64,000 bases of DNA from Synechococcus sp. MVIR-18-1 (GTDB taxonomy: Bacteria; Cyanobacteriota; Cyanobacteriia; PCC-6307; Cyanobiaceae), in assembly GCF_014279835.1 (NCBI RefSeq), contig NZ_CP047942.1, positions 1,860,001 to 1,924,000 of the forward strand. The letters run 5' to 3'. Both the position numbers and the translations under genes were made by a program. The notes under the pieces were generated by a model that searched no databases, had not been told where the DNA came from, and saw only the letters and a program-made list of their open reading frames with translations. Positions within the stretch are counted from its first letter, which is position 1; every line of letters begins with the position of its first letter. This document shows positions 5,267 to 42,056 of this stretch, in pieces.

Positions 5267-7107
5267 CGTTCAGCCCGAGGCCGTTCCCATGTTGAATGAG
5301 CCCCTCTGGAATGGAGCTTTAAAGCTCTTTTATCCAATTCCCTCCTGTCGAATCGAAGAACTTGATAAATTCCAAATTGTCCGAGGGGCTCTGGATTGAG
5401 ACCCTTCCAATGTTTCTTTTTCATTGTCAGTGAATCAATAACAATTATCGCCGTCTGTGACCCTCCTTTCTTGCTGGTTGGAAACCCTTGCCATCCCTTT
5501 CTTTTCTCCTTGCTGAAGCGATCCGCAACATTGATAAAGGCGTTCTTAGATGTTCCTTCGTAGACAACAACCTGATCTGTGTAGAAGTGCAAAGAGGGTT
5601 TCATCACCCCAACCATCGCCAAAGGTTCATCAGGACCTTGATGTTCCAACACAGTGGCGGCTACTTCACGGATTGGAAGTTGGCGTACACGATCGCCGAG
5701 GTCAACCATCGGGATGAGAGCAATGAGCTGGAACATCACCAGCGGTCCCTGAACGGCTAGCAAGCGACCAGAGGCCTTTCGCCTGATCATCCAGAGGCCC
5801 AAAACGCCAGCGATCGAGAAGCACACCGCTGCTCTTAAAACCAAGCGGCTTGCCAGCAGTTCGGCTGGCAGCGTTGGCATTTCGGGGTCATCGATGAGAG
5901 GAACCCAGATCGAAGAACTCCAGAACCCCACTGCCAACACAAACGTGAGCAGGATTGTTGTGCCCCAGGCCCAATCCAAAGGAGGTCGGTTCCTTCGTTC
6001 GGAAGGCCTTGCTGCAAGGGCGATGAGAATGGCAGCAGCAGGCGTTGCAGGAATCCAGTAGCTCGGAAGCTTCGTGGCCGCGGTGGTGAACAGCAGCAAT
6101 ACAGAAAGAAGCCAGCAACTGGCAAAACTCTGAAGAGACAAGTTTGCGCTGGATTGGACAGATGAAAAGGCACGCTTCAGGTTTGAAGGGTGCAGGGTTT
6201 GCCCCAGCCCAAGCAGCAATAGGGGGGTGAAGGGCAGGGATGCCACAACCAAAATCACCCCGAAAAACCACCAGGGTTGGAGGTGGCTGTTCACGACCGA
6301 TGTGAAGCGTTGCAGGTTGTGATAACCAAAAAAGCTATCCCAAAAAGGCTGGCCTTCGACCAGCAGTTCTGCGACATACCAAGGCAGGCTGATCAAGGCG
6401 GTGAGTGCAAGGCCGCGAAGCGGTTTGATGCATTGCGAGATGCCCTTCAGATCCCAGCGCACCAGAGCAAACAGCACCAGGGTCATGCCACTGAGGACCA
6501 CGGCCACAGGCCCTTTCGTGAGCACGGCTGAGGCGAGCAGAACCCAGGCGAGCCACCATCGTCGAGACGTTCCACTGGCATAACAACGCCACTGGCAGAG
6601 GAGGCTCAGAGCGAGGGTGCCGCTGAGTAAGGGATCACTGACGGCCGTCCGACTCCAGAGCTGTACTAATGGAGAGAGCGCGAAGGCCAGTGCTGCTGCG
6701 ACTGCGGTGCGGCGAGGGTGATTGTCATTTTCGGCCGGATGCACCATCAAGGTGTCCCCAAGCATCAGCATGGTTGCCACACTCGCCAGGGCTGAGGGAA
6801 GCCTCCCAGCCCAGGTGCCGAGTGGGTCCCAGAGCTCATTGGCAGGAATCGAGTACCCCAACCCCATAAGCCAGTACACCAGGGGCGGTTTGTCGAATCT
6901 TGGCAATCCATTAACCCGAGGGGTTAACCAGTCACCGGTGCGAGCCATGGCACGACCGGCAGCTGCAAAGAGCGGTGGGGTTTCATCGACCAGGCCAGTG
7001 GAACCCAGTTGCCAGCAGCACATCGCAAGGCCAAGCGCCAAGATCAGCAGCAGACCTCGGCTGCGCTGTCGTGGCGAGATCCGTGGGTCGGCAGGGGCGT
7101 TGATCAT
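5260..7107 (-). CDS. ArnT-like family 39 glycosyltransferase, integral membrane
   Basis: A polytopic membrane protein of about 615 residues. The N-terminal loop contains GLVDETPP and GDWLTPRVNGLPRFDKPPLVYW, the signature of ArnT/PMT-type (GT39/GT83) lipid-linked-sugar transferases. The Asp-Glu pair is the expected catalytic or metal-binding site. About a dozen hydrophobic helices follow, then a soluble C-terminal domain. Such enzymes move a sugar from a polyprenyl-phosphate donor to lipid A, protein or another acceptor on the outer face of the membrane. The start at 7107 makes an ATGA overlap with the preceding GT4 gene; ATGs at 7113 and 7158 are alternatives. Acceptor unknown. Confidence 0.88.
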   Translation of the reverse strand: MINAPADPRISPRQRSRGLLLILALGLAMCCWQLGSTGLVDETPPLFAAAGRAMARTGDWLTPRVNGLPRFDKPPLVYWLMGLGYSIPANELWDPLGTWAGRLPSALASVATMLMLGDTLMVHPAENDNHPRRTAVAAALAFALSPLVQLWSRTAVSDPLLSGTLALSLLCQWRCYASGTSRRWWLAWVLLASAVLTKGPVAVVLSGMTLVLFALVRWDLKGISQCIKPLRGLALTALISLPWYVAELLVEGQPFWDSFFGYHNLQRFTSVVNSHLQPWWFFGVILVVASLPFTPLLLLGLGQTLHPSNLKRAFSSVQSSANLSLQSFASCWLLSVLLLFTTAATKLPSYWIPATPAAAILIALAARPSERRNRPPLDWAWGTTILLTFVLAVGFWSSSIWVPLIDDPEMPTLPAELLASRLVLRAAVCFSIAGVLGLWMIRRKASGRLLAVQGPLVMFQLIALIPMVDLGDRVRQLPIREVAATVLEHQGPDEPLAMVGVMKPSLHFYTDQVVVYEGTSKNAFINVADRFSKEKRKGWQGFPTSKKGGSQTAIIVIDSLTMKKKHWKGLNPEPLGQFGIYQVLRFDRRELDKRALKLHSRGAHSTWERPRAERY

Positions 7108-8216
7108 CGACATGGGGCGATCGTGCCATCCCTTGCAGAGAGTCCCTGCCTGATCCAAGCCTCAACGCGTTGTGCAAACACCGTATGGCTGGCGTTCTGT
7201 TCCACCCAACGGCGACAAGCTTGTCGATCGATTTGATCGACTTTGCTGCTTGCCATTTTTAGGGCCTCGAGATCATCGGGATGCACAAGCCATCCCGTGA
7301 CTCCGTTTTGAATCAGTTCGCCCGGACCACCGCGGTCGTAGGCCACAACAGGGACACCGCAGGCCATGGCTTCCACCACCACATTGCCGTAGGCCTCATT
7401 CCATTTGGGCGTATTCAGGAGAGCGCGGCAGCAGCCAAGCTCTTTCTGAAGTTGGTGTGTCGGCTGAAAACCGCGCCAATTAATGGTTCCTGGAGGCACG
7501 GCGGCTTCCACCGATTGTGCATAGTCAGCATCTTCGACCAAGCCCCAAACCAGAAGCGTTTCTCCCAGAGCAGCGGCAACAGCTGCAGCATCTTCGAGGC
7601 CTTTTTCAGGCGCGATGCGTCCGGCCCATCCGAGTGGGCCATGGAGGGACAACTGCAACTGATAACGCGTGAGGTCAAAGCCATTCCCCACAATTGAAGG
7701 TGGCATGGGCAATGAAAAATCCCCTGCCTGTCGTTGGGTATGGAATGACATTCGCCTTTGGTCCCAGCGCGCGAGTTGAGAGATGACTTCATCCATCGCC
7801 TGCGAGACCGACCCCATGCTCACCAAATGAAATAACGAGCACTTCGCATGGGGAGTGAGCCAGAGCGGTAACCAGTCGTAGCTGAAGTTGATCACTGCAT
7901 CGGCGTCCTCGCCCAAGGACAAAGCAAGGTCCCACAAATGTGGAAGCACACCATCAAAGGGAATTTGAACGGAAGCGTCTTTTGCGGCATGTTGCCAGCT
8001 GGGTTGATCGCTGCCCCCAGCGGTGTGTAGTGAGAGTTCAGGGCAGTCGTCAGGCGCAACCGATCCGTTAGGGGCGACCAGGGTGATCCGATGCCCTCTT
8101 GCGGCTAGACCGCGCAATAACGAGGTCAGCGTTAGTTCCACACCACCACCGCGTCCACTGCCTAAATGTCCGATGGGTGTACTGACCAGTACCAAATGCA
8201 GAGGGGTGATGCTCAT
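7104..8216 (-). CDS. GT4-type glycosyltransferase
   Basis: A 370-residue GT-B fold glycosyltransferase. The N-terminal half has the glycine-rich loop GHLGSGRGGGVE and LAARGHRITLVAP. The C-terminal half has the GT4 nucleotide-sugar motif EAYGNVVVEAMACGVPVVAYDRGGPGELI with the EX7E pattern. The start at 8216 (MSITPLHLVL) forms an ATGA overlap with the stop of the EamA transporter gene and removes an implausible 37-residue extension. It also overlaps the GT39 gene by ATGA, so the three genes are probably translated as one coupled unit acting on an envelope glycan or glycolipid. Donor and acceptor are not identifiable. Confidence 0.9.
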   Translation of the reverse strand: MSITPLHLVLVSTPIGHLGSGRGGGVELTLTSLLRGLAARGHRITLVAPNGSVAPDDCPELSLHTAGGSDQPSWQHAAKDASVQIPFDGVLPHLWDLALSLGEDADAVINFSYDWLPLWLTPHAKCSLFHLVSMGSVSQAMDEVISQLARWDQRRMSFHTQRQAGDFSLPMPPSIVGNGFDLTRYQLQLSLHGPLGWAGRIAPEKGLEDAAAVAAALGETLLVWGLVEDADYAQSVEAAVPPGTINWRGFQPTHQLQKELGCCRALLNTPKWNEAYGNVVVEAMACGVPVVAYDRGGPGELIQNGVTGWLVHPDDLEALKMASSKVDQIDRQACRRWVEQNASHTVFAQRVEAWIRQGLSARDGTIAPCR

Positions 8217-12259: not shown

Positions 12260-13408
12260 GTGATCGGGTACATCTCCGACAATCTGCTGCTGCCAATCCT
12301 GGATTTTTTCTACGGATTGGTCCCGAGCTATGGCCTGGCGATCGTGGCCCTCACGGTGGTAATTCGCCTGGCGTTGTTCCCTCTCAGCGCAGGGTCGATT
12401 CGTAGCGCCAGACGCATGCGCATCGCTCAGCCTGTGATGCAGAAGCGCCAGGCTGAGATCAAAGCCCGTTACGCAAGCGATCCTAAAAAGCAGCAAGCCG
12501 AACTCGGAAAGCTGATGAAGGAGTTCGGTAGCCCCCTGGCGGGCTGCTTGCCGCTCCTCGTTCAAATGCCGATTTTGTTTGCGCTGTTCGCAACTTTGAG
12601 GGGATCACCCTTTGCGGATGTGCCTTACACCCTCAATCTCAAAGTGCTTCCCGCTGATCAGATTGCGGCTGTTGAGCCCAAGCCTTTCACCAGCGCCAGT
12701 CATTCGATCTTCATTACGGAAACGAATCACGTTCCCATCATCGCGAGCCTTCCTGGCGGTACCAAGATCGGCGCTGGAGAGACTGTTCCGATTCAGCTCG
12801 AGACCCGTGGTGGAGAAAGTTTCCGCGATGTGATTTCTGGCGTCGATAACGGCCAAAGGTTTCTTCCAACTTGGACGGTTACCAAGGGAGAGGGAATTGT
12901 CAGCGTGAGTGAGACGGGAACGATTACAGCCCTCACGACTGGCGATGCAACCGTTGAAGGGAAAATTACAGGTTTGGCCGCTCGCAGCGGCTTCTTGTTC
13001 ATCAAAGCCCTAGGTCAGGTTGGCTTTTACACCGAGGGTGCGATCAATTGGGACATCGCAATTCTCATTGGCGCATTCGGTCTGAGTTTGTTTGCTTCTC
13101 AGCTTCTCTCCGGGATGGGGATGCCTGCCAATCCGCAGCAGTCCACCGCTAACAAGATCACTCCAGTGATGATTACTGGGATGTTCCTGTTTTTCCCACT
13201 CCCTGCCGGTGTTTTGCTTTACATGGTGATTGCCAATATTTTCCAGGCACTGCAAACGTTTTTGCTCACGCGCGAGGCTTTGCCGGAAAATCTTCAGTCG
13301 ATTCTTGATGACCAAAGGCTGCAAAATTCTCAGCCTGCAGCGGCCTCCGCAGGTGGCGGATCCACGTCTGGACGCATGCCGTTTGAGCCCAAAGGCGGAA
13401 ACAAATGA
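12260..13408 (+). CDS. yidC: YidC/Oxa1 membrane-protein insertase with an inserted lumenal domain
   Basis: Inserts and folds membrane proteins into plasma and thylakoid membranes, alone or with SecYEG. The 382-residue product starts at a GTG. The first helix pair carries the groove arginine ([10 protein letters not shown], Arg36), then a basic cytoplasmic hairpin (48-90) and [16 protein letters not shown]. Between helices 2 and 3, residues ~115-250 form an unusually long loop. Part of it (about 173-240, ending [19 protein letters not shown]) looks like a bacterial Ig-like group 2 (Big2) fold. The C-terminal helices [20 protein letters not shown] are standard. Its stop overlaps the DUF177 start by ATGA. 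Confidence 0.95.
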
Positions 13409-13956
13409 TTCCTGGGCTTGAGCCCGTTCCCCTTCGCGAGCTGCAAGCTCTTGGTTCCGTTCGTGAGTGGGAATTCGAAGGCCCACTTGAGGAGCTGCCC
13501 TCCCTCACCCCAGTTCGCGGAACCATTCGGGCCGAGCATCGCGGCAATATTCTTGAAGTTTCCGGTTCAGCTCAGACCATCGTTTGTTTGTGTTGCGATC
13601 GCTGTCTGAAGCATTTCAACCGCGAATTGTCCACGGGAACGAATGAGTTGATCTGGCTTGGAGATCGTGAAGATGAAGCGGAGATGGCGGAAGAGGGCCT
13701 GGATGCATCTTCAGTGGATGGACTTGTGGAGTGTCTGGATCCAAGGGGCCTTTTTGAACCAGAGCGATGGGTGTTTGAACAGTTGAGTCTTCAAATGCCA
13801 GCTGTAAATTTCTGCGGTGATGGTTGCTCAGGAATGCCTCAATCGGTCAACCCAGAGCAGACAGCTTCGGTGACGCCGTCTGCCGATCCGCGTTGGGAGG
13901 CTCTCTTGAGCCTGCGCTCTGACCCAGGCGAGGAGTCGGAGGTGACGCGTGACTGA
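13405..13956 (+). CDS. DUF177 (YceD-like) metal-binding protein
   Basis: A 183-residue YceD/DUF177 protein. In other bacteria and in plants, relatives act in 23S rRNA accumulation or L32-linked steps. The N-terminal part has the [24 protein letters not shown] region; the Cys cluster is CLCCDRC (61-67), with a later CGDGC that may complete a metal site. It overlaps yidC by 4 bp and the Ycf46 gene by 8 bp, so all three genes are probably in one transcript. Unlike the common bacterial layout, no rpmF follows it. Confidence 0.85.
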
Positions 13957-39721: not shown

Positions 39722-39835
39722 GCGGGCGCTTGCTGCAACAGTTCGTGATCACTAGGTCCTCTAGGGCCTCATCCGCATCCCACCCCGTGATACAAGGGCT
39801 TGGTGCGCTGTCTACGTCAGTCTCTGACATCTTTC

Positions 39836-40348
39836 ATGGCCTCTTTTTTCTCCACATTGCGTCGATCTTTGAATCGACTGCTGATCGCCCTGCCAGTGCT
39901 GCTTGGACTGTTGATCAGTGCCCCCGCCCAGGCCGCCCAGTGGGATGCCGAGACCCTCACGGTGCCAGCTGACGGCGATGGCGCCCTGGTCACCTTCAGT
40001 GAGCAGGAAATCAAGACAGGACGGAAGGTGTTCAACGTCAGCTGCGGCACCTGTCACGCTGGCGGGATCACTAAAACCAACCAAAATGTTGGCCTGGATA
40101 CTGAAACGCTTGCGCTGGCCACTCCAGTCCGTGACAACGTTGCTGCTCTCGTGGATTACATCCAAGACCCAACGTCCTATGACGGGGAGTACAGCATCGC
40201 CGATCTGCATCCCAGCATGCGCAGTCGTGATCTGTACCCCGCTATGCGTGATCTCACCGATGAAGATCTTCGCCTGATGTCTGGATACATCCTGGTGGCC
40301 CCCAAAGTCTTGGGTGTCGAATGGGGCGGTGGAAAAATCTACTTCTAA
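39836..40348 (+). CDS. psbV: Cytochrome c550 (PSII extrinsic protein)
   Basis: Extrinsic lumenal subunit of photosystem II that stabilises the Mn4CaO5 cluster. The 170-residue precursor has a twin-basic signal peptide ending APAQA|AQWD and a haem-binding CGTCH motif. The C-terminal LVAPKVLGVEWGGGKIYF is the conserved tail. The ATG at 39836 (MASFFSTL) is chosen over a 12-residue longer start. A terminator follows at 40385. This is a strong marker for a cyanobacterium. Confidence 0.97.
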   Translation: MASFFSTLRRSLNRLLIALPVLLGLLISAPAQAAQWDAETLTVPADGDGALVTFSEQEIKTGRKVFNVSCGTCHAGGITKTNQNVGLDTETLALATPVRDNVAALVDYIQDPTSYDGEYSIADLHPSMRSRDLYPAMRDLTDEDLRLMSGYILVAPKVLGVEWGGGKIYF

Positions 40349-40384
40349 TTTTTGATTAGATAATCACGCCACACAAACTAGAAA

Positions 40385-40419
40385 AAGGGCCTCAGGAAAT
40401 CCTGGGGCCCTTTTTTATA
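40385..40419 (+). terminator. Intrinsic terminator after psbV
   Basis: AGGGCCTCAGG and CCTGGGGCCCT fold around AAAT and are followed by a run of six T. The stem has one G-U and lies about 40 bp after the psbV stop. Confidence 0.9.
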
Positions 40420-40648: not shown

Positions 40649-41554
40649 ATGCTCTCCTCAACATCCGTCATCACAAGCTTTGGCGGTGAACGCGAAGCCA
40701 AACCTTCGACCTCATACAAAAGTGTACAGAATAAATCTTCTCAGTCAGCAGCACTATGTAATAGTGAATTCAAGCGAAGACAGTGCGAGGAAATGAAAAT
40801 AGCCATAGGCCCTCGTCTTCATGATCAATGCGAGAGAACAGTCACTTTCGAGGAATATCCAGACATGTCGTCGGAAGCATTAGAGAGCGCCCTAGGCAGT
40901 GCCTATAAACACGTCTATGGGAATGCACATGTCATGGATAACGAGAGATCCACTTCTCTTGAAGCACAATTAAAAGATGGGCGTATTTCGATTCAAGATT
41001 TCGTACGTGGACTCGCAAAATCTGACTTCTACAAGAAAAATTTCTACGACAAGTGTTCGCCAGAAAGAACCATTGAACTTGACTTCAAACATATCCTAGG
41101 CAGGACACCTCATGATCAACGTGAGATCACAAAATACATTGAGATCCAAGCATCAAAGGGGCATCATGCTGTGATTGATTCAATGGTGGACTCAGCCGAA
41201 TATTCAGAAACATTCGGACGCTATACAGTTCCCTTCATGAGGTCTTGGCTTTCCCAAGCAGGATCAGCTCAATCAGCATTCAATAGAACAGCTGCAGTTT
41301 GCCTTGGATATGCATATAGCGACAAAGCGATCGGAATCAACTCAAAGCTAAGTCAAGGCTTAAAAACAGGGCAAGCAGACAAAATTGTCTTCCCACACGC
41401 ATCAAAACTGAATTTCTCAGGAGCAAACCTGATCCTGAAGAAAGGAAAGCCAGCAGCATGGATCAGAAAATCAGCAACTATTCTAACAATCGCTGGTGCA
41501 ATCGAAGTCACCCGAATCATTCTCACGATTGCCTTTAGCGCCTTCGCTTCTTGA
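40649..41554 (+). CDS. Phycobilisome linker-domain protein with C-terminal hydrophobic segment
   Basis: A 301-residue protein. Residues about 75-200 form a phycobilisome linker (PBS_linker_poly) domain: RISIQDFVRGLAKSDFY, ELDFKHILGRTPHDQREITK, VIDSMVDSAEYSETFGRYTVPF. Residues ~275-300 (SATILTIAGAIEVTRIILTI) are hydrophobic and probably membrane-embedded. Rod linkers have no membrane helix; CpcL/CpcG2 linkers do, and these tie rod-only antennae to photosystem I. The first ~70 residues match no known linker. The gene lies in an AT-rich patch, monocistronic. It may be a CpcL-like or a new membrane linker. Confidence 0.75.
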   Translation: MLSSTSVITSFGGEREAKPSTSYKSVQNKSSQSAALCNSEFKRRQCEEMKIAIGPRLHDQCERTVTFEEYPDMSSEALESALGSAYKHVYGNAHVMDNERSTSLEAQLKDGRISIQDFVRGLAKSDFYKKNFYDKCSPERTIELDFKHILGRTPHDQREITKYIEIQASKGHHAVIDSMVDSAEYSETFGRYTVPFMRSWLSQAGSAQSAFNRTAAVCLGYAYSDKAIGINSKLSQGLKTGQADKIVFPHASKLNFSGANLILKKGKPAAWIRKSATILTIAGAIEVTRIILTIAFSAFAS

Positions 41555-41762: not shown

Positions 41763-42056
41763 ATGTCGAAAGGCTACTGGGTTGTGACTGGCAATATTCA
41801 CACTCCACTCGGAATGGTTCCGTATATCAACAAATTCACGGCTTGGCTTCCAACAGTCGGAGCACGTTTATTAATACGCGATCTTCAGAGTGAGGTACGG
41901 GAAGGGACTCCTGGTTCAGTCAATATTATTGTTGAATTTGATTCAAAAGAGAAAGCAGTCACTGCGTACGAATCAACAAAATACCAAGAATTACTCAACC
42001 TCAGGCTTCAGAATTCAGATCTCAGCCTCACCATTACGGAAGAATTGATCAACTAA
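41763..42056 (+). CDS. DUF1330 family protein
   Basis: A 97-residue dimeric alpha/beta (ferredoxin-like) protein: KGYWVVTGNIHTPLGMVPYIN..., with NIIVEFDSKEKAVTAYESTKYQELLNLR, which fits the DUF1330/dimeric alpha-beta barrel family. Function is unknown; similar proteins are stand-alone small cytosolic domains. It follows the linker-domain gene after 208 bp on the same strand. Confidence 0.8.
   Translation: MSKGYWVVTGNIHTPLGMVPYINKFTAWLPTVGARLLIRDLQSEVREGTPGSVNIIVEFDSKEKAVTAYESTKYQELLNLRLQNSDLSLTITEELIN

Follow-up and report, generated by a model that had tools for sequence, protein, structure and literature searches.

MpeF of Synechococcus sp. MVIR-18-1, a PEII-type linker with a putative CpcGII-type membrane anchor

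The mpeF locus

The window that we analysed is a stretch of 64,000 nucleotides from the genome of Synechococcus sp. MVIR-18-1 (G000), which is a single contig of 2.45 Mb. It holds an intact open reading frame (Table 1) whose product, judged by sequence similarity, is an orthologue of MpeF, an extra phycoerythrin-II (PEII) linker whose gene was named in 2007. All 31 genus genomes have linkers and match MpeF somewhere, and 16 of the 31 matches reach its C terminus: in nine genomes the whole protein matches at 55-100%, and in seven, where part of the N terminus is missing, residues 75-300 match at 59-62%. The MpeF of G001 is 87% identical to the one described here, and the match in G005 stands at 42% over residues 8-292. 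The start codon is kept, with MLSS opening all 16 MpeF rows of a 17-row alignment. None of the 16 genus genomes holding mpeF has an internal stop in it, and comparison with five relatives indicates purifying selection in all four regions of the gene.

Table 1. Features in the window and related features elsewhere (G, genome; L, locus).
Feature	Position	Strand	Evidence or remark
psbV (cytochrome c-550), upstream neighbour of mpeF	39800..40348	+	Pfam and other database matches
Terminator-like hairpin with T-run between psbV and mpeF	40381-40416		Strong, z -6.7
mpeF, PEII-type linker, predicted to be membrane-anchored	40649..41554	+	301 aa plus stop; Pfam, predicted orthologue of MpeF
N-terminal PEII-linker region, residues 1-73	40649..40867	+	Common to MpeD/MpeC/MpeE
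Cys46, first conserved cysteine of the phycourobilin site in PEII linkers	40784..40786	+	By-eye alignment with MpeD Cys44
Cys61, second conserved cysteine	40829..40831	+	Aligned with MpeD Cys59
PBS_linker_poly domain (PF00427), residues 74-198	40868..41242	+	Pfam E 1.9e-44
CpcGII-type anchor module (putative), residues 260-301	41426..41551	+	Profile and hhalign comparisons
Predicted C-terminal helix, residues 270-300	41456..41548	+	AlphaFold; contains Glu286, Arg289
DUF1330 gene, downstream neighbour of mpeF	41763..42056	+	Pfam
CpcGII, CpcL-like linker with hydrophobic tail	G000:C1:507024-507782 (L101)		Tail KD 1.94
CpcGIII-like linker ending in hydrophobic helix	G000:C1:924074-924559 (L012)		KD 2.22
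mpeF and CpcGIII-like pair	L063 (G010) 6919-7815 and 13066-13857; also G029 contig 20		
Stand-alone ~59-residue anchor protein	L165:2930-3106, L164:2995-3171, L166, L169-L182		
77-92-residue anchor-bearing proteins	L183:1481-1756 and L184:1432-1662		

The original prediction, made from the sequence alone, had placed a phycobilisome linker in an A+T-rich patch away from the phycobilisome genes, and both points hold. The G+C content of mpeF is 44.1%, against 54.3% in the window. The gene begins at G000:C1:1900649 (1.90 Mb), and most of the rod linker genes are found near 0.49-0.51 Mb, about 1.4 Mb off; the genome has 13 PBS_linker_poly domains in 10 proteins. We rejected an obligatory single operon of psbV and mpeF because the strong hairpin with its T-run, which is missing from the output of a simple consensus scan, separates the two genes. 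Of 11 loci examined, six share the psbV-mpeF neighbourhood and five do not, so psbV is a neighbour of mpeF and not a shown partner. In one otherwise different locus (L063), a 45% relative of the DUF1330 gene follows mpeF after about 1.2 kb. Searches of Rfam and PHROGs returned no matches, and a scan of viral contigs gave 300 pattern matches and no MpeF relatives.

Six et al. (2007, PMC2246261) reported mpeF in CC9311, CC9902 and BL107, which are chromatic-acclimating strains, and listed mpeG in RS9916 and RCC307 (their Table 2; their text calls the RS9916 gene mpeF). They described both genes as unlinked to other phycobilisome genes and as related to the N terminus of MpeD. The gene described here agrees with their mpeF in its position outside the phycobilisome region, in its relation to the MpeD N terminus and in its occurrence in a strain whose genes predict chromatic acclimation. 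The main text of the 2007 paper does not use the word 'hydrophobic', its lone 'transmembrane' passage concerns unk3, and a membrane tail goes unmentioned there. Nor do the passages on mpeF or mpeG that we found by searching open-licence PMC full texts mention a membrane tail of MpeF. The MpeF family has been known since 2007, whereas neither its anchor nor its chimeric make-up came up in this literature; a preprint or subscription paper may report them.

N-terminal region and linker domain

The N-terminal region, which the original prediction had called unknown, turned out to be that of a PEII linker. Aligned by eye, it matches MpeD, MpeC and MpeE of the same genome through the motif C ... G-P-R-x-H-x-x-C, and its two cysteines are spaced by 15 residues, as are Cys44 and Cys59 in this genome's MpeD. 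In MpeD of WH8102, region 43-59 holds two phycourobilin cysteines (Six et al., PMC2246261). By this pair of cysteines, MpeF has a predicted phycourobilin site like that of other PEII linkers. Ten of 17 aligned relatives have both cysteines, and residues ~36-76 are missing in the other seven, all of them MpeF (L026-L032). Because these seven lack the two-cysteine stretch, a pigment carried by the linker itself seems dispensable. Outside MpeF and MpeG, the best match in the genus set is the N-terminal half of MpeD (43-47% over ~230-250 residues), which has the same cysteines; MpeD, however, runs on into a second linker domain where MpeF has its putative anchor.

The predicted PBS_linker_poly domain was borne out. 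With 151 bits, PF00427 clears its cut-off of 28.7, and it is the only Pfam domain of the protein. An AlphaFold model built on 119 rows (the window protein plus 118 of 146 references prepared; pLDDT 75) replaced an earlier one on the 17-row alignment (pLDDT 37), and gives 10-residue pLDDT means of 80-96 over the domain. The modelled protein has the rod-linker fold, with Z 28.0 to 7sc8_BL. Five comparisons with relatives put dN/dS in the domain at 0.045-0.134.

We placed the domain in a linker-domain tree of 127 columns, in which 96 of 207 domains were left after thinning at 85% identity. MpeF falls inside a PEII-linker group of 29 of the 96 rows (support 97/85; MpeD_N 9, MpeG 8, MpeF 6, MpeE 5, MpeC 1), and its six rows form a single clade (100/98). 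One MpeD_N row (L042) falls outside the group. The CpcG/CpcL group of 50 rows (100/99) stands apart from it. A single clade of MpeF and marine CpcGII was rejected (dlnL 95, p-AU 1.8e-4), as was one of MpeF, MpeG and marine CpcGII (129 log units, p-AU 1.15e-5). Joining MpeF basally to all CpcG/CpcL rows was not rejected (dlnL 3.3, p 0.34), so that a root of MpeF beside that group fits as well. A row labelled otherCpcG (L093 473-1277) sits among rod linkers and was omitted from the CpcG/CpcL side in the first AU test. Likewise, a single clade of MpeF and MpeG linker domains was not rejected (p 0.41), and one or two fusion origins both fit. NCBIfam CpcG models score MpeF at 82-95 bits, against cut-offs of 420-440. 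MpeF thus lacks the CpcG-type linker domain that characterizes CpcL.

The C-terminal tail and its relatives

The hydrophobic C-terminal segment that had been claimed is real. The best 19-residue window lies at residues 278-296 (KD 1.92), and the best outside the tail reaches 0.53; among 20000 whole-protein shuffles, 71 attained 1.92 within the last 45 residues and 606 anywhere. The tail is conserved in 16 of 16 MpeF and is under purifying selection in five of five comparisons (dN/dS 0.14-0.48), less constrained than the linker domain. It was also said to be unlike the ends of rod linkers, and this stands for the C-terminal 40 residues of MpeD, MpeC, MpeE, CpeC and CpeE of this genome (KD ≤0.66), so that MpeF does not end as soluble rod linkers of the MpeC/D/E kind do. 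To this we add that CpcGII and the CpcGIII-like linker also end in hydrophobic stretches; all other linkers of the genome have C-terminal KD ≤0.66, the ApcE frame being cut by the locus end.

Whether the tail crosses a membrane is a finer matter. AlphaFold models a single helix here, with a mean pLDDT of 81 over residues 281-300. In this model MpeF resembles CpcL, in which one PF00427 domain is likewise followed by a hydrophobic helix at the C terminus. Fold comparison barely tests the tail, because only two of 40 rows reach residue 301 (rmsd 9-12) and the others stop at ≤259. On the octanol scale, its minimum is -2.6 kcal/mol, compared with -5.8 for CpcGII of this genome, -1.9 for MpeG of G005 and, for four CpcL-type tails of other cyanobacteria (by our own cut, tail KD ≥1.9), -10 to -12.1 in three and -5.3 in one. 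The MpeF tail is thus a marginal membrane span, weaker than most CpcL helices. Its charged pair, Glu286 and Arg289, is nearly invariant in the family alignment, and its 11-residue hydrophobic moment is high (0.50). Because of these two features, the helix might instead lie on a protein or membrane surface, and a helix of this kind, or one that binds a membrane protein, would fit the octanol values as well.

Profile comparisons point to an origin for the tail that differs from that of the linker domain. The putative anchor module has the pattern W-x-x-G-x-P-P ... K ... G-x-x-E-x-x-R ... I-A-x-S. We selected 28 CpcGII sequences by an E-x-x-R pattern within the last 30 residues, so that this motif is present in them by construction, and built a profile from the tails of 23, omitting near-duplicates, MpeF and this genome's own sequences. 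Run against the whole genome, the profile found CpcGII (1.1e-20) and MpeF (1.2e-7); the next match, at 0.58, was noise. Across the 31 genus genomes, it matched the tail of every one of the 16 MpeF and of the one MpeG, as well as CpcGII in 30 genomes, largely by construction since most of these sequences had built the profile. Up to E 0.05, the same search gave two other, chance-like matches and three short ORFs. Direct hhalign comparison of the MpeF tail with CpcGII tails gave E 4.4e-11 for the single sequence and 3.5e-13 profile to profile. With the 28-sequence profile, the 16 MpeF scored 22.4-32.4 bits, four further MpeF initially labelled 'other' 22.2-26.5 bits, and nine of nine MpeG 15.6-25.3 bits, against 10.8 for the best of 5000 composition shuffles and 8.5 for the best of 4425 unrelated ORFs; L098, a CpcL-type linker of another cyanobacterium, also beat the shuffles (13.7 bits). 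The reverse profile, made from MpeF tails, discriminates less clearly: CpcGII reached a median of 17.9 bits (worst 3.1) and MpeG ≤9.1, with one shuffle at 17.4, and in a second run MpeG reached 13.5 bits with the best shuffle at 9.8. On these comparisons, the C-terminal modules of MpeF and of marine Synechococcus CpcGII are homologous, and CpcGII differs in having a CpcG-type linker domain and no PEII N terminus. The MpeF domain does not derive from marine CpcGII, yet the tail belongs with CpcGII; by its sequence, MpeF is therefore a chimera of a PEII rod domain and a CpcGII-type anchor module.

The same anchor family ends MpeG, which has a PEII-type linker domain and a two-cysteine N terminus; the G005 protein is 41% identical to MpeF. 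MpeG differs in lacking the E..R pair and in carrying an extra terminal stretch (GIHGLDRIPAMFLGL in G005), and its tails are less hydrophobic (KD 1.25-1.71 in nine). The three short ORFs, in G005, G010 and G029, encode a protein of ~59 residues that is essentially an anchor of the MpeG type and is conserved to its last residues, with differing flanks. Stand-alone copies occur in 25 of 400 family genomes, one of which has two, and none turned up in this genome with E values up to 0.001. Searching the 400 genomes with the stand-alone protein also recovered the tails of 16 of 16 MpeG and CpcGII tails; MpeF tails were not among the matches, and the link between the MpeF tail and the small protein runs via CpcGII. 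Compared profile to profile with MpeG plus the stand-alone protein, the MpeF tail gave E 4.9e-5. The small protein has no significant match in Pfam, NCBIfam or the PDB, where it gave one weak chain (E 0.39) and the anchor profile none.

Two small genomes (1.3-1.4 Mb) encode 77-92-residue proteins with a distant copy of the anchor (E 1.0e-5 and 2.2e-5). We take these genomes, as a guess, to be Prochlorococcus-like, and such cells presumably lack phycobilisomes; if they do, the anchor there could hint at a photosystem partner. A high-light-inducible protein (HLIP) is encoded in both loci (L183 and L184), where translation shows that it only lies near the anchor protein. The idea that the anchor is a degenerate HLIP was rejected by profile scores: a profile of 42 HLIP sequences gives no anchor family more than 0 bits, and the anchor profiles score HLIPs at ≤5.5 bits, inside the shuffle range. 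The tail of the CpcGIII-like linker was not matched by the CpcGII-tail profile at E up to 10 and is perhaps a second kind of anchor. In two genomes, G010 and G029, mpeF and the gene for a CpcGIII-like anchored linker lie ~5 kb apart.

Distribution, proposed role and comparison with known systems

In this genome, a tandem AraC-type pair, fciA and fciB, is followed by a lyase-like gene that its position suggests to be mpeZ-like; the three genes lie at G000:C1:1766765-1770645 (L067). The order is that described for the CA4-A island, fciA-fciB plus mpeZ (Humily et al. 2013, PMC3877281). Of the 400 family genomes, 62 carry a match to PEII-type linkers, and we found MpeF in 20 and MpeG in 16; because at most five candidates were scored per genome, under strict E limits (1e-62 and 1e-60), these presence counts are lower bounds, and they include an MpeG with an in-frame stop (G403). 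An intact CA4-A-type FciA is present in 18 of the 62, all with MpeF (14) or MpeG (4), as opposed to 18 of the 44 other PEII genomes. Identity alone separated the types, with 70-100% to the FciA of this genome taken as CA4-A; a distant FciA (55-57%), probably that of CA4-B, occurs in nine PEII genomes, of which five have MpeG and none MpeF. PEII genomes without intact FciA have MpeF or MpeG in 13 of 35 cases, including G403. When only the 42 genomes of ≥90% completeness are considered, the counts are 14 of 14 with CA4-A-type FciA and 10 of 28 without. Fisher p-values for the association (2e-4 and 7e-6) overstate independence because the genomes are related. The link of MpeF and MpeG with CA4-A-type FciA is thus strong, not exclusive, and drawn from genomes that are not independent. 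Two genomes with a broken fciA, one with an in-frame stop (G006:C1:1246566-1247597) and one with a remnant (G022:C1:2255910-2256164), were counted as lacking FciA, and neither MpeF nor MpeG was found in them.

The reading that we favour, at a probability of about 0.55, is that MpeF is a membrane-tethered PEII rod linker working like CpcL. Its MpeD-type linker domain would organise PEII discs and sit in the membrane-proximal PEII hexamer, and its C-terminal helix would span or enter the thylakoid membrane and tie the discs there. Such a core-less rod may then hand energy to a photosystem, and the analogy with CpcL makes photosystem I the likeliest one; alternatively, the anchored disc might feed an adjacent phycocyanin rod. 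PEII emits near 565 nm, where chlorophyll absorption is weak, and because of this poor overlap, transfer from PEII to chlorophyll would need close contact. Mass spectrometry in 2007 covered WH7803, RCC307 and RS9916 and identified every PEII linker predicted for them except the mpeF/mpeG-type product of RS9916 and RCC307 (PMC2246261). An anchor of the same kind would explain why MpeG was missing from isolated soluble phycobilisomes, and CpcGII likewise went undetected in that study, though seen earlier in WH8102. Because MpeF of the CC9311 type was absent from the strains analysed, this evidence bears on MpeG strains, which lowers our confidence in a membrane-tethered MpeF.

A less probable account, to which we give perhaps a chance in five, makes MpeF a soluble or peripheral rod linker of core-based phycobilisomes whose tail packs against another protein and is hidden there, for instance at the end of the rod. 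The linker domain is that of an ordinary PEII rod linker, the weakly hydrophobic tail contains Glu286 and Arg289 and has a high local moment, and Six et al. (PMC2246261) allow that mpeF and mpeG replace another PEII linker under particular light. This account has to contend, however, with a tail homologous to that of CpcGII, with a relative of the tail that exists as a small stand-alone hydrophobic protein, which a rod-end contact would not predict, and with the failure to see the related MpeG in phycobilisome preparations (PMC2246261). We think it very unlikely that mpeF is cryptic, little expressed and carried along with the chromatic-acclimation lifestyle with no real antenna role. Its A+T-rich composition and the absence of related products from phycobilisomes in standard culture (PMC2246261) would suit such a gene, but the purifying selection and the lack of internal stops noted above, and a single conserved chromosomal place in six relatives, argue otherwise.

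Even if MpeF does anchor PEII rods, these might serve as an antenna of photosystem II or as a PEII store, and not as an antenna of photosystem I, a reading of modest probability. Here and in 6 of 11 loci, mpeF lies downstream of psbV, which belongs to photosystem II, and the evidence presented here points to neither photosystem. Against this, psbV has its own strong hairpin with a T-run, the neighbourhood is not kept in the other five loci, and the published partners of CpcL are photosystem I complexes (PMC11165356, PMC10322944). We raise, only as a conjecture of modest likelihood, a third kind of antenna in chromatic-acclimating marine Synechococcus: short core-less PEII rods, with no phycocyanin or allophycocyanin base, seated directly on photosystem I through an interchangeable membrane helix. 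If this is true, CpcGII, a linker of the phycocyanin type, and MpeF and MpeG, linkers of the PEII type, have all acquired one helix by fusion, and this helix also exists as a small protein on its own. With a rod-membrane linker for PEII, blue and green light caught by PEII would reach a photosystem without a phycobilisome core, and type IV chromatic acclimation would be tied to the sharing of light between photosystems. Such a linker would also explain a gap left in 2007, when the additional PEII linker that RS9916 and RCC307 encode did not turn up in isolated phycobilisomes.

One of the known systems close to MpeF is CpcL (CpcG2 of Synechocystis, CpcG3 of Anabaena), a rod-membrane linker (PMC10322944, PMC11165356, PMC9415938) that, like MpeF, joins one PF00427 domain to a hydrophobic helix at the C terminus. 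The CpcL rod of Synechocystis has this domain in the hexamer nearest the membrane, with the helix, which was not resolved, as the predicted rod anchor (PMC10322944); in Anabaena heterocysts, CpcL was found bound to photosystem I (PMC11165356). The original prediction, an antenna linker that is tethered to the membrane as CpcL is, in a marine strain, is supported by the sequence evidence. The hydrophobic tail, homologous to that of CpcGII, speaks for it, although marginal as a membrane span, while phylogeny puts the linker domain with PEII linkers and not with the CpcL family. A linker domain inside the soluble rod linkers, together with a non-helical C terminus, had been named as counting against it; the domain does lie among PEII rod linkers, and the C terminus is modelled as a helix. 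The prediction was thus right in direction, with MpeF as a PEII linker bearing a CpcL-like anchor and, by its linker domain, no member of the CpcL family. CpcL differs in that its CpcG-type linker domain holds phycocyanin, and the CpcL-type tails of other cyanobacteria in our comparison are more hydrophobic than the MpeF tail. The rod-membrane linkers that we met in the literature consulted carry phycocyanin, and MpeF would be their PEII version.
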